Origin: Acutalibacter sp. 1XD8-36
GTDB taxonomy: Bacteria; Bacillota; Clostridia; Oscillospirales; Acutalibacteraceae
Assembly: GCF_009917525.1 (NCBI RefSeq)
Contig: NZ_QZDU01000014.1
Location: 1-40,397, forward strand
Direction of reading: 5' to 3'
Length of the DNA: 40,397 nt
In this document: one piece after another, positions 34,723 to 39,657 of the stretch
How positions within the stretch are numbered: the first letter of the stretch is position 1
How the letters are laid out: the number at the start of each line of letters is the position of its first letter
Position numbers and translations under genes: made by a program
The notes under the pieces: generated by a model
What the model saw: only the letters and a program-made list of their open reading frames with translations
Database searches by the model: none
What the model was told of the DNA's origin: nothing

Positions 34723-35490
34723 CTAGTGTTTGCTTAGAAATTCGCTTTCCTTCTGTAATGGTGTCTTGTATTGATTCGTAGCGTGAGGCCTTTGCTCGTT
34801 ATAAAAGACTATGTACTTATCAACAGCTGCCCTAAATTCGTTTTCAGAGCGGTATTTTGCCCTATATAGCTCCTCACGTTTCAGATAGAAAAGAATGATT
34901 CCATAACTGAATTGTCGTAGGGTGTGTATGCTTTTGAAAAAGATTGCGTGACCCCAAGCGATTTCAAATAACTGCAAAATGCAGCAGCCCTGTAGTTCGT
35001 TCCACGGTCTGTGTGGAATATTAGCGGTTGTGTGGGGCAACGGTTTTCATATGCCGTACGAAAAGTACTCTTGACTAACTGTGTGCTGTTAGACTTGCCA
35101 ATCCTATAAGCTATCACTCTCCTTGCGAACAGATCTATAACCGCACATATATAAAACTTTTTCTCGTGGAAACGGAAGTATGTAACATCACTTCCCCACA
35201 CTTCATCGGGACAAGTAACATTAAACTGTTGATTCACATGGTTGGTAAATTTCCTTTGTTCCTTATTATAGGTATTTTTCGCGCCTTGCCGCGCACTGGT
35301 CAATCCCATTTCTCCCATGAGTTCTTGTACCATATCGGGTGAAGTGTGATAACCTTTTTCTTTCATGATGGCAAATATCTTTTTAGCGCCAAAAATTTGA
35401 TTGCTCTCATCATATATTTGCTGAATGACATCACAAAGTTCTTTTCGGCGTTGAGCGTAAGATGTGTTCTCGCGCTTGTTGCGCAGGATA
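34723..35490 (-). pseudogene. IS3-family transposase orfB (DDE integrase domain), frameshifted
   Basis: The integrase core is recognisable: the upstream part RGTFYNHILRNKREN continues into YAQRRKELCDVIQQ, IFGAKKI and VWGSDVTYFRFH (first Asp), FHTDRGTNYR (second Asp) and NSVMESFF (Glu). Near 34884-34886 a one-base loss changes the frame: the first frame ends just after ESFFSI, while the correct continuation LKREELYRAKY to EFLSKH lies in another frame, ending at 34723. The 3' part carries the usual YNEQRPH motif. The protein is therefore not made as one chain, and the element is probably immobile unless helped by another copy. Confidence 0.82.
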
Positions 35491-35493
35491 TGG

Positions 35494-35802
35494 TTATAGA
35501 ATGTGCCACGGGGAACATTCTAAAGCCTTCAATTTGGTATCAAGCGAATCGCTGGGAAGACAGCCTGCTGTCTTGAGGATCTCAATGATTCCTTCAAGGT
35601 GCTCAACTTTTCTCTCAAGCATACGGAAGTTCTTTAGGGAAAGCTCATTCGGGGTGTCTTGATTACGTGATTCTTCCTTGAGCCAGTTATAGATCGTGCT
35701 TCTGGGTACTCCTGTTTCCAGAGAGATATGGGCTACTGATTGGCCGTTTCTGTGGAGAGAAATGATGGCTTGCCTTTCATTGGGTGTGTGTTTATAGTTC
35801 AT
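35494..35802 (-). CDS. IS3-family transposase orfA (helix-turn-helix)
   Basis: A 102-residue DNA-binding protein with a helix-turn-helix (QSVAHISLETGVPRSTIYNWL, residues about 20-40) and a leucine-zipper-like helix (FRMLERKVEHLEGIIEIL). In IS3 elements orfA and orfB overlap and the full transposase is made by -1 frameshifting. The orfB frame overlaps here, since RGTFYNHI is read from the same bases as the orfA C-terminus. A palindrome (TCAACTCC/GGAGTTGA) lies just upstream of the start. Confidence 0.85.
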   Translation of the reverse strand: MNYKHTPNERQAIISLHRNGQSVAHISLETGVPRSTIYNWLKEESRNQDTPNELSLKNFRMLERKVEHLEGIIEILKTAGCLPSDSLDTKLKALECSPWHIL

Positions 35803-35945: not shown

Positions 35946-37288
35946 TTACCCACCCAATTGACGTTTTAATGCTTTTCGTATTTTTGACATATGCAGTCTG
36001 GTATCTCTGTCAATCGATTCCTTATATCCAATAATCTTTTTTGAACGTTGTATATATGTCAAAAAGTTGCCGGAACACTTTCTTGTGTGACCATCTCTCT
36101 TCTTGATCAGATAACCATTTGCACCCTTAATAGAATATAAATTGTACAAGTTTGAGGCAAGAATGCGTTTTCCTACAGAAATGTTTCCCGGTGATTTTGT
36201 TATACTTTTAACTTTCCTGTACATACGCTGATAATATTTTCCAGTCGTTTTAGCTCTGACCGTTATGGTTTTCCCATCAAAAGTAAAACCGAGAAAATTG
36301 ATAAAGCGTTTTGACTTTTTATCGGATATGCCATACTGTGCGCTACAACTTACTAACGATTGGTTTTCAAATCGGTAATATTGTGTTTTTTCTGGTTCTA
36401 AAGTCAATCCATCAATTTTAAAAAATCCGCTCACATCTTTCATTGCTTGAGAGGATGTATCTCCGTTGTCTGGGATCACAATAATAAAGTCATCACTATA
36501 ACGCATATAGAATCCGTTCAAATTACTTACAAAATAATGAACTTGCCTATCAACATCCATCATGTATATATTTGCAAGCATGCCGCTGATCGGAGAGCCC
36601 TGGGGGATGCCGTATTTGTTTGGGTTTGGTTTGATGTGTGTTCGGTTAGCTTTGAATTCCTTTATTGATAGTACACGCGAACGAGAATTCAGTTCCTTAC
36701 GGCCTTTCAGATCATCCGGCAGATGGTTCAGAGCCAATAAATCAGACAGTTCCCAAACACTATACCTAGTTAAACTTTTGAAGACAGCATAATGATCGTC
36801 TGGGAGCCGCGATTCCCACAGCAGAGAACACCATTGACGCTTTAAATAGTTGTGATCCAGATTGTCGAAAAAGCCAGTGAAATCTCCAATCATAATATAG
36901 CACGGAGAATTATTTCGGATAAAGTCGATGGCGCGCTTTGCAAAGTTGATATTGCTTTGATGAAGGTCGCTCCTATAGGCTACAGCAACATGGGATATCC
37001 TATCTTGTTCTACACGCTGATTATATAACTCGCCTAAAATAAAGTTATAATACTGATATATACAGCGGTCAATGTGTGCAGCATAGCAAATATCCCGCTT
37101 TTTATCTGTCTTTCCGTCTGTTTTTGCTTATAATGAATAAACGGATAGAATCCATGCAGTTTTATATTTTTCGGATCTGATAAATAAACGCGTTGCTGCC
37201 CTATATTCGTTCTGTAATCAAAGTGAGCATAAAAGCGCATACTTTTTTCTTTTGCCTCATCTGATGCCAGCCATTCTTTATCAGTCAT
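35946..37288 (-). pseudogene. drt2: DRT2-type (UG2) defence-associated reverse transcriptase, interrupted by one frameshift
   Basis: With one base restored in an A5 tract (37121-37125 on the plus strand), a ~447-residue protein is read. It begins MTDKEWLASDEAKEKSMRFY at 37288, passes GFYPFIHYK, changes frame and continues as RDICYAAHIDRCIYQYY, HVAVAYR and FAKRAIDFIRNN. The RT core follows: motif A IGDFTGFFDNLDH with its Asp, then GIPQGSPISGMLANIYM and YMRYSDDFIIVIP with the catalytic YSDD. The N-terminal region and the AHIDRC and WC.LL motifs match the DRT2 family as I remember it. In DRT2 the RT copies an upstream ncRNA into concatemeric cDNA that encodes a toxic repeat protein upon phage infection. 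As written the protein ends about 29 residues after the shift. AAGGAG precedes ATG 37288. Confidence 0.8.
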
Positions 37289-37312
37289 CTCAAAATCTCC
37301 TTACAAAATGCA

Positions 37313-37617
37313 ATATCCGCCAACACGAGGGGCAGCATCCCTAAGTTGGCGGATATACAGTTTTGTTGATAGCTTCTCATTGTACAGCTATTAGGACATG
37401 CTAAGAAGCCAGCTGCCCGATTACGCAATATTCAACTATGATATAATTGAATGGGATGCCTGTGCCATCCTCTGGATATGTTTGATAACGGTGGCCGCCG
37501 TTCTGACAGCTTTCAACCAGTATCACCAAGTTCACAAACCCTATCAGGAGCTCCTGATAGAAATTACTACGAAAGGATTGACAACAATACATCTCCCTTA
37601 CATCCTACGTGTAAGGC
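37313..37617 (-). ncRNA. Probable DRT2 template ncRNA
   Basis: The ~305-nt region between a perfect promoter and the RT gene holds no conserved protein but many hairpins, in transcript order: 37596-37616 (7 bp); 37541-37560, a 20-nt perfect palindrome; 37487-37502 (5 bp); 37453-37469 (5 bp); 37431-37451 (9 bp, with a G-U pair only on the minus-strand RNA); 37369-37391 (6 bp); and 37313-37324/37345-37356 (12 bp with an inner stem), just before the RT ribosome binding site. DRT2 systems carry such a structured RNA of roughly this length upstream of the RT. Stop-free frames cross the middle on both strands (minus 37604-37404; plus 37395-37619), as expected if one encodes the endless ORF. The exact RNA ends are inferred. 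Confidence 0.7.
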
Positions 37618-37623
37618 AATAAT

Positions 37624-37652
37624 ATTATAGATCATCTGCCATGAATTGTCAA
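37624..37652 (-). promoter_or_regulatory. Perfect consensus promoter of the DRT2 ncRNA
   Basis: On the minus strand TTGACA (37647-37652), a 17-bp spacer and TATAAT (37624-37629). The predicted RNA start at about 37617 coincides with the base of the first hairpin, so this promoter most likely makes the ncRNA and may also read into the RT gene. Confidence 0.85.
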
Positions 37653-37828: not shown

Positions 37829-37838
37829 TTTCCATATC

Positions 37839-38480
37839 TTACTTCAAAACAAAGTGATTTTTCCGAAAATCGATAAGCCCATCCCGCCGCATTTTCCCCA
37901 GCTCTTTGGAAAGCGCGCTGCGGTCCAGGTTCAGATAATCGGACATCTCCTGCCGGTCAAAGGGTATAGTGAACTCGGCTCTGCCTGCCCGCACAGACTG
38001 GTATGATAAAAAGGACAGCACTCGCCCCCGTGCGGATTTAGGAGTCGTGCAGAATAGGCGGTTGCTTAGGGCTAGATTTTTCTGGAAAGCTCCCATCAGC
38101 AAGTGGCGGTATAGCTTTGGGTGCCACGTTTTCTGCCGGTTTTCCTCCCGCAGCAGGGCGGTAATGTCCATCATCAGGACTTGAGCATCCTCCGCGCAGA
38201 CCACGTCTACCATCAGCGGTTCCCGGCACATCACATAGGTCTCGGCGAACATCTGACCCGCTGGGACTGCCTGTAGGATGCTTCGGGTCCCCCACACGTT
38301 CACGTTTTCTATATGGACGCTCCCCGATAGCACAATGCCCATCTCCTGGGCTATATAGCCCGCGTGAAGGATCATCTCGCCCTTTTGGTAGCTGTGCCTG
38401 TGCATACCGTGGAGAGTTTGCATTTCATCCAGTTCCTTCGGGGTGATGTCGTGGAGCAGGGGTATAAAAGATAATTCCAT
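37839..38480 (-). CDS. Crp/Fnr family transcriptional regulator
   Basis: A 213-residue regulator. The cNMP-like beta-barrel covers about 15-125 (KGEMILHAGYIAQEMGIVLSGSVHI, AGQMFAETYVM) and the C-terminal winged helix has FDRQEMSDYLNLDRSALSKELGKMRRDGLIDF. It lacks the N-terminal Cys cluster of oxygen-sensing FNR and the Arg/Ser residues of cAMP-binding CRP, so the signal is unknown. It probably controls the divergent iron-sulfur protein gene, in whose promoter a palindrome lies at a class II position. I start it at ATG 38480 because GGAGGAAATTT precedes it. Confidence 0.9.
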   Translation of the reverse strand: MELSFIPLLHDITPKELDEMQTLHGMHRHSYQKGEMILHAGYIAQEMGIVLSGSVHIENVNVWGTRSILQAVPAGQMFAETYVMCREPLMVDVVCAEDAQVLMMDITALLREENRQKTWHPKLYRHLLMGAFQKNLALSNRLFCTTPKSARGRVLSFLSYQSVRAGRAEFTIPFDRQEMSDYLNLDRSALSKELGKMRRDGLIDFRKNHFVLK

Positions 38481-38500
38481 AAATTTCCTCCATATTTGTG

Positions 38501-38539
38501 GTTGCAGCAACATAATATCTCTTTAAACTATACTATAAT
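38501..38539 (+). promoter_or_regulatory. Class II-type operator and -10 box for the iron-sulfur gene
   Basis: The palindrome GTTGC-A-GCAAC (38501-38511) is centred at 38506. A perfect TATAAT (38534-38539) predicts a start near 38546, so the operator centre is at about -40, where class II CRP/FNR activators bind. The bases at the expected -35 position (CATAAT) match consensus poorly, which fits an activator-dependent promoter. Confidence 0.6.
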
Positions 38540-38568
38540 CAGAGCAAGAAAACAAGGGAGGAAAGAAA

Positions 38569-39249
38569 ATGGTACGTAAAATCATTCATATAGACGAGGA
38601 AAAATGCAACGGTTGCGGGGCCTGCGCCAGCGCCTGCCATGAGGGAGCTATCGGAATGGTGGGCGGCAAGGCAAAGCTCCTGCGGGACAACTACTGTGAC
38701 GGCCTGGGGGACTGCCTGCCCGCCTGCCCTGCCGGGGCGATCTCGTTTGTGGAGCGGGAGGCGGCAGCGTATAACGAGCAGGCGGTCCAGAGCAATAAAG
38801 CGAAGCAGAACACCGGTTGTCCGGGCCAGCAGATGCGACGGTTTGACCGGACAGAAGAAGCGCCCGCATCTGCCGCCAAGCCTGTCTCCCAACTGGGCCA
38901 GTGGCCCTGCCAGATCAAGCTGACCCCGGTAGACGCGCCATATTTTGACGGTACAAAGCTGCTTATCGCCGCCGACTGCACCGCCTATGCCTACGCCAAT
39001 TTTCACCAGGATTTCATGCGGGGCAAGATCACGCTGATCGGCTGCCCCAAGCTGGACGGAGTGGACTATAGCGAAAAGCTAACGGAAATTATCCGGCGGA
39101 ACGATATCCAGAGTGTCACCATCGTGCGCATGGAAGTACCCTGCTGCGGGGGATTGGAGGCGGTGGCAAAGAAAGCCCTGCAAAGCAGTGGGAAATTCAT
39201 TCCCTGGCAGGTGGTCACGATCTCCACAGACGGCAGGATCTTAGAATAA
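38569..39249 (+). CDS. 2[4Fe-4S] ferredoxin-type protein with C-terminal CCG-like motif
   Basis: A 226-residue cytosolic iron-sulfur protein. The first cluster motif is CNGCGACASAC (Cys13, 16, 19, 23), and a second group has Cys43, Cys49 and Cys53 ahead of PAGAISF. After a charged linker (about 68-100), the C-terminal domain carries IAADCTAYAYANFHQDF, GCPKLDG and EVPCCGG. This is a widespread clostridial protein usually seen beside a Crp/Fnr regulator and a hybrid-cluster protein gene (hcp); its function is probably electron transfer in nitrosative or redox stress. GGGAGGAAAG precedes ATG 38569. No hcp gene lies in this window. Confidence 0.85.
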   Translation: MVRKIIHIDEEKCNGCGACASACHEGAIGMVGGKAKLLRDNYCDGLGDCLPACPAGAISFVEREAAAYNEQAVQSNKAKQNTGCPGQQMRRFDRTEEAPASAAKPVSQLGQWPCQIKLTPVDAPYFDGTKLLIAADCTAYAYANFHQDFMRGKITLIGCPKLDGVDYSEKLTEIIRRNDIQSVTIVRMEVPCCGGLEAVAKKALQSSGKFIPWQVVTISTDGRILE

Positions 39250-39277
39250 ACAACAGTCACACAAAGGAGGATGCACC

Positions 39278-39610
39278 ATGAATGGACCGATGAAAAATAT
39301 TGCAAAGGCGGAAGTCCTGACCCTAAAGGAACAAGTGGCGTATCAGGAGGGCTAGGTGGTCAGCAAGACGCTGGCCCAGAACAGCGCGGTGAGCGTGACC
39401 CTGTTTTCCTTCGATCTGGGCGAGGAGATCAGCACCCATGAGTCCGGCGGCGACGCCTTCGTCACTTGCGTGGACGGCGTGGGAAGGATCACTATTGAGG
39501 GGCAGGAGTTTTTTCTCCATGAAGGGGAGTCTATCGTTATGCCCGCCGGGCACCCTCATGCGGTCTTCGGGCAGGAACGGTTCAAGATGCTGCTAGTCGT
39601 GGTGTTTTGA
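39278..39610 (+). pseudogene. Cupin domain protein with in-frame amber codon (possible restart at GTG 39356)
   Basis: The frame opens at ATG 39278 with AAGGAGG upstream and reads MNGPMKNIAKAEVLTLKEQV, then AYQEG and a TAG at 39353-39355. It continues in the same frame as VVSKTLAQNSAVSVTLFSF, GEEISTHESGGDAFVTCVDG and EFFLHEGESIVMPAGHPHAV, a complete small cupin barrel with metal ligands HES...H. The related protein has Gln at this position (EGQVVSK), so TAG is probably CAG changed by one transition. The codon after TAG is GTG, and AGGAGG lies six bases before it, so an 84-residue cupin could be made by reinitiation. It lies 28 bp after the iron-sulfur gene and is probably in the same operon. 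Confidence 0.85.
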
Positions 39611-39657
39611 GGGGAGTACGTGCATCTTTTAAGTCAGAGTTGGTTTAACGGCTTTTC

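Follow-up and report, generated by a model that had tools for sequence, protein, structure and literature searches.

Does the minus-strand reverse transcriptase (RT) locus studied here encode a DRT2 antiphage system, and is that system still able to work? The window, the whole stretch of 40,397 nucleotides of Acutalibacter sp. 1XD8-36 DNA that was analysed, harbors the RT as two overlapping minus-strand frames that jointly make up one DRT2 RT (Table 1). The initial annotation had assigned the gene to DRT2 (UG2), with intact catalytic motifs and a single missing base in an A5 tract as the only lesion. The assignment is borne out, while the lesion turns out to be of a different kind.

Table 1. 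Features of the DRT2 locus (positions in the window)
Feature	Position	Strand	Remarks
RNA promoter	37624..37652	-	TTGACA 37647-37652, 17-nt spacer, TATAAT 37624-37629; same place in relatives' alignments
Rfam RT-6 RNA (RF03027), 5′ part of DRT2 RNA	37544..37618	-	55.8 bits; gathering score 46.7
Handle hairpin within RT-6	37596-37616	-	compensatory changes in 7/8 consensus pairs (15 sequences)
5′ jump motif TATTG, template start (predicted)	37585..37589	-	motif/promoter scans
3′ jump motif TATTG (predicted)	37426..37430	-	motif/promoter scans
Predicted neo repeat unit	37430..37588	+	159 nt, 53 sense codons as antisense tandem array
Junction promoter parts (predicted)	TTGACA 37578-37583; TATAAT 37442-37447	+	17 nt apart across array junction
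Long 3′ scaffold hairpin, "tower"-like	37303..37366	-	inverted repeat 37303-37324 / 37345-37366; covarying helix (15 sequences)
RT N-terminal piece	37034..37288	-	84 aa, ATG start; RT sequence only ahead of the frame change; PADLOC Drt2 E 8e-12
Shortened loop with frame change	37098..37129	-	32 nt; 45-69 nt in 25/29 relatives measured
RT C-terminal piece	35946..37124	-	392 aa plus stop; all catalytic motifs

The profile search that had been proposed as a check places PADLOC PDLC03757 (Drt2) at the top for both RT pieces, with an E value of 5e-123 for the C-terminal one, for which the next family, Drt9, reaches 8e-23. NCBIfam Drt2 (NF041746) is likewise first for both (33.5 and 335.5 bits, the pieces searched apart), and the next model for the large piece, a group II maturase, scores 81.7 bits. 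The nearest PDB chains are the DRT2 structures 9lje, 9c0i, and 9lv7 (E 2e-47 to 2e-45). Group II, retron, and Abi identities were rejected because Drt2 models lead both the PADLOC and the NCBIfam lists. DFTGFFDNLDH, GIPQGSP, and YSDD all lie within the C-terminal piece, which is free of internal stops, in agreement with the initial annotation. By its profile matches, the minus-strand RT is a genuine DRT2 member split across two frames. The clade lies at the edge of the curated NCBIfam Drt2 cut-off (390 bits): of eight whole relatives, three exceed it (L008, 394.1; L010, 397.4; and L038, 566.9 bits) and five score 342-388.9 bits. Placement of the system in a Gram-positive anaerobe is supported indirectly by the nearest named relatives, namely a Clostridiales MAG, Flavonifractor, and Pseudoflavonifractor.

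The break is located in a loop between the FYPFIHY and RDICYA codons. Both anchors could be located in 25 of 29 relatives; there, every loop length is a multiple of three, and the closest relatives (L011, L008, L009, and L035) have 51 nt, so that the window shows a net deficit of 19 nt (six codons plus one base). The most similar relative, L011 (71% over 266 residues), carries the AAGCAAAAACAG of the window, A5 tract included, and its frame is open at that place. With an identical A5 in an open frame in L011 and 19 nt missing from the loop, the lesion is something other than the A5 tract. A one-base slip in this tract, phase-variable or due to an assembly error and leaving the RT potentially functional, would account for two frames that are one position apart, the second of which has no further stop. 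However, it accounts for neither the identical tract in L011 nor the 19-nt deficit in place of a 1-nt one, and it is therefore unlikely; the contingency tract and the assembly error originally proposed both lack support. The A tract also sits within the overlap of the two open frames, where a programmed ribosomal frameshift could yield a full RT, yet a standard slippery heptamer is absent in the required register (sequence read by eye), L011 needs no shift despite having the same A tract, and in all 25 relatives with a measured loop, the loop is continuous and its length divisible by three. Judged from the window sequence and L011, such a frameshift is extremely unlikely.

Because both frames are open over about 37034-37127, the switch point is not placeable from the window alone. 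Most simply, the lesion would be one net deletion of 19 nt, making the gene a deletion pseudogene; an in-frame loss of 18 nt combined with a separate loss of one base, or with a sequencing error, may also have produced it. With two frames in place of one intact RT reading frame, the window RT appears to be a broken DRT2 member rather than a working one, and, for want of a complete RT, the system of this strain should be silent. A broken copy is, by itself, ordinary. The lesion had also been called very recent, which is plausible because the rest of the RT and the neo frame (see below) are both stop-free. The window copy is a dead DRT2, probably one that died recently, with its RNA and neo template intact. 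Some other RT copies are broken or truncated at different places (L011 beyond about query residue 266, L021 near 122-125, and L033 beyond about 122), and their neo frames are open.

Directly upstream of the RT, the window contains a structured RNA with an RT-6 match and covarying handle and 3′ hairpins. The covariation alignments comprise 15 sequences picked to leave out near-copies, and in the 3′ region of the RNA compensatory changes occur in 16 of the 22 predicted pairs, chiefly in the long hairpin. Matches to RT-6 exceed the threshold in 15 of 19 relatives and in five of 13 further loci (L033, L034, L035, L061, and L062). Rfam RT-6 is now identified as the 5′ part of the clade's DRT2 RNA; the Rfam model covers 75 positions and leaves the template, the scaffold, and neo undescribed. 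In contrast, the RNA region of the DRT2 on a Photobacterium damselae plasmid (L038, 1166-1278) matches Rfam RT-12 (RF03016, 72.9 bits) and not RT-6. A sub-threshold RT-6 match in L036 (27.2 bits) was dropped, as no RT was found alongside by tblastn.

The template of the window carries the hallmarks of a DRT2 with Neo: a unit divisible by three that is stop-free across junctions and a junction promoter. As an antisense tandem array, the unit gives one stop-free frame of 53 codons, FNYDIIEWDACAILWICLITVAAVLTAFNQYHQVHKPYQELLIEITTKGLTTI, and the junction rebuilds TTGACA-17-TATAAT with 0 mismatches. If copied head-to-tail, the window template would constitute a predicted endless neo gene.

The relatives compared come from named genomes (17 loci) and from further genomes. 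The ATTG rule, in which the unit runs between two ATTG motifs, was framed on L006-L022. Of the loci read afterwards, L033, L034, L035, L043, and L061 fit with ATTG, L062 fits with ATT, and L037 and L063 fit neither. Altogether, 27 loci carry the 5′ motif (near-copies included), of which 23 fit with ATTG (the window, L006-L022, and the five just named), two with ATT only (L023 and L062), and two not at all. The last two, L037 and L063, combine the 5′ motif ATTGNTGTCAA with a DRT2-like RT yet lack a fitting neo unit, and may represent decayed templates or another scheme; L024 is likewise outside the rule. The near-copy groups are L008/L009, L007/L010/L022, and L015/L016/L021. In loci with more than one ATTG site, promoter geometry and frame decided which was taken as the 3′ one, and such loci are therefore not blind tests. 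In one test of 24 loci the rule passes in 17, with the -35 element always starting 11 nt before the junction; the other seven are L023, L024, L038, L039, L044, L045, and L047.

All 19 tabulated loci (near-copies included; L009, L010, and L035 are absent, L035 having been missed by the pattern, and their fits are counted from other scans) have a unit whose length is a multiple of three, with no stop in one and the same antisense frame, whereas the other two antisense frames are open in none of 38 cases. The units measure 126, 132, 138, 141, 144, 147, 153, 159, 165, or 180 nt. Scaffold lengths served as the control: counted from the 3′ motif up to the scaffold core, they leave remainders of 0, 1, and 2 modulo three in 3, 5, and 6 of 14 loci, respectively; no scaffold core was found in L015. 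Scanned without a preset motif (L040, L041, L042, and L046 left out), 29 of 30 loci yield a qualifying unit, whose junction promoter is perfect in 18 (two of these with a spacer of 16 or 18 rather than 17), has one mismatch in nine, and has two in two. The same scan of 180 dinucleotide shuffles gives 0 perfect, 3 one-mismatch, and 25 two-mismatch promoters, counts that serve as a guide and not as a probability because the loci are related rather than independent. An ACA rule was rejected for the clade, as none of 24 loci has an ACA unit with a promoter of 0-1 mismatch; the best one (L007) has two mismatches and another geometry, and of the 10 upstream ACA pairs in the window, none passes the frame test.

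Alternatively, the stretch of RNA flanked by the motifs could have a purely structural role or template a different cDNA, in which case the open antisense frame would be a by-product and the clade would make no Neo protein. Between the window and L011, the neo frame differs by 9, 10, and 12 substitutions at the three codon positions, with no third-position bias, and 18 of the 23 changed codons are nonsynonymous; conservation is thus clearer for the openness of the frame than for its amino acids. No start codon shared by all neo units was found, one sense frame is also open in six of the 19 tabulated loci, and L037 and L063 fail the rule despite their 5′ motif, all of which would suit a clade lacking Neo. 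By-product status is nevertheless quite unlikely, given that a single antisense frame is open throughout the tabulated loci, that unit lengths are always multiples of three while scaffold lengths are not, and that the junction promoter keeps a fixed spacing.

Outside the clade, the best units use other sequences at the junction. For L038 the prediction is a unit of 111 nt, joined at AGAT and with a perfect promoter across the junction. Two phage records without annotation, L044 (Clostridioides phage HGP05) and L045 (an uncultured phage clone), encode DRT2-like RTs; their predicted units measure 132 and 135 nt and are joined at GTAT.

Comparison with Klebsiella pneumoniae DRT2 draws on three papers (PMC12039810, PMC11100668, and PMC12596737). 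Experiments on Klebsiella establish the tandem neo architecture, there with ACA motifs and a unit of 120 nt (PMC12039810; PMC11100668). The two systems share the RT family and an upstream RNA with a 5′ handle hairpin, a template, and a structured 3′ scaffold, in which the Klebsiella "tower" (PMC12039810) is the counterpart in place of the long 3′ hairpin. They also share a unit divisible by three with an antisense frame that is stop-free over the junction, where TTGACA-17-TATAAT is rebuilt. In contrast, the jump motif of the clade is ATTG in place of ACA, its units are 126-180 nt compared with 111-129 nt reported for Klebsiella, its RT is about 30-36% identical to non-clade members, and the window RT is broken. 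For more divergent DRT2 clades, Tang et al. describe the RNA as predictable and Neo annotation as more challenging, and suggest alternative mechanisms (PMC11100668). Among the open-licence papers listed, no title or abstract opening mentions neo in Clostridia, ATTG as a jump motif, an assignment of RT-6 to DRT2, or a connection between HrcA and DRT2.

The locus is very likely a DRT2 antiphage locus of an RT-6-marked Bacillota clade, its RT inactivated, most simply by the net loss of 19 nt in a loop ahead of the RDICYAAHIDR block, and with intact relatives that would make neo arrays. In the latter, the RT would bind the upstream RNA and copy the template lying between the two ATTG motifs. The cDNA would then melt, and its terminal CAAT would re-anneal at the 3′ ATTG, giving a head-to-tail cDNA array. 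Once double-stranded, the array would have a vegetative promoter rebuilt at each junction as well as an endless reading frame (neo), the product of which would arrest the infected cell. RT identity, the break in the frame, RNA conservation, template periodicity, the open antisense frame, and the junction promoter are seen in the sequences themselves. The steps of cDNA synthesis, jumping, neo expression, toxicity, and triggering by phage are attributed to the clade by homology to Klebsiella DRT2, and the clade most likely works like the latter with another jump motif. ATTG-guided neo in a Bacillota clade would suggest that jump motifs are clade-specific and that neo reaches well beyond the Klebsiella type. 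The ATTG rule also supplies directly testable neo sequences for this clade.

Some relatives carry a heat-shock operator at the RNA promoter. CIRCE, TTAGCACTC-N9-GAGTGCTAA with 1-3 mismatches of 18, occurs in nine of 30 loci, about six of them distinct (L006, L007, L008, L009, L010, L011, L012, L022, and L035), and in all nine its last base immediately precedes the -35 TTGAC. In the other 21 loci, including the window, the best match in the whole stretch searched has at least 5/18 mismatches; the window has no CIRCE at its RNA promoter, its best match (5/18 mismatches) being elsewhere. The genome of the window does encode HrcA and has two CIRCE sites at no more than three mismatches, before hrcA-grpE and groES-groEL. 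In the RT tree (built without L022, L023, and L033, which are too short, and without L061-L063), the window groups with four other rows in a supported set (100/99), and all four carry CIRCE; the CIRCE label requires three changes, and none of 500 shuffles is as low. Most likely, the window copy has lost its operator. The operator lies directly before the -35 element in nine relatives, as in the HrcA/CIRCE regulon, but precedes a defence RNA rather than a chaperone operon and is missing at the window locus. Its position suggests that HrcA may act at the DRT2 RNA promoter, which would place a defence system under heat-shock control, and a heat-shock operator at such a promoter bears on how these systems are controlled.

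The fuller account is favored with some reserve: a Bacillota DRT2 clade that builds neo by ATTG-guided template jumping, with clade-specific jump motifs and neo extending well beyond the Klebsiella type, one branch of which is repressed by HrcA, the window strain descending from that branch with its operator and RT lost and its template kept. If the HrcA branch is real, titration of chaperones by infection or heat would increase the supply of the RT-RNA complex.

The RNA of the window starts after a Crp/Fnr-type gene (37839-38513). In genome G976, from the same genus, similarity to the window (80%) covers 37833-39630 and ends there, so that the DRT2 side resembles an inserted or replaced segment. 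Downstream of the RT are a helix-turn-helix ORF (35494-35802), an rve-type transposase sequence in two overlapping frames (34881-35366 and 34723-35040), and then four tRNA genes; the segment 34723-35802 is probably a decayed insertion sequence. A scan of viral contigs with the RT alignment found no relative. The distribution of DRT2 is patchy, with a match in one of 29 genomes of the genus and three of 200 of the family, the genome of the window being included in both counts. The same genome has three further matches to the RVT_1 family on contig C11 (L001, L002, and L004).
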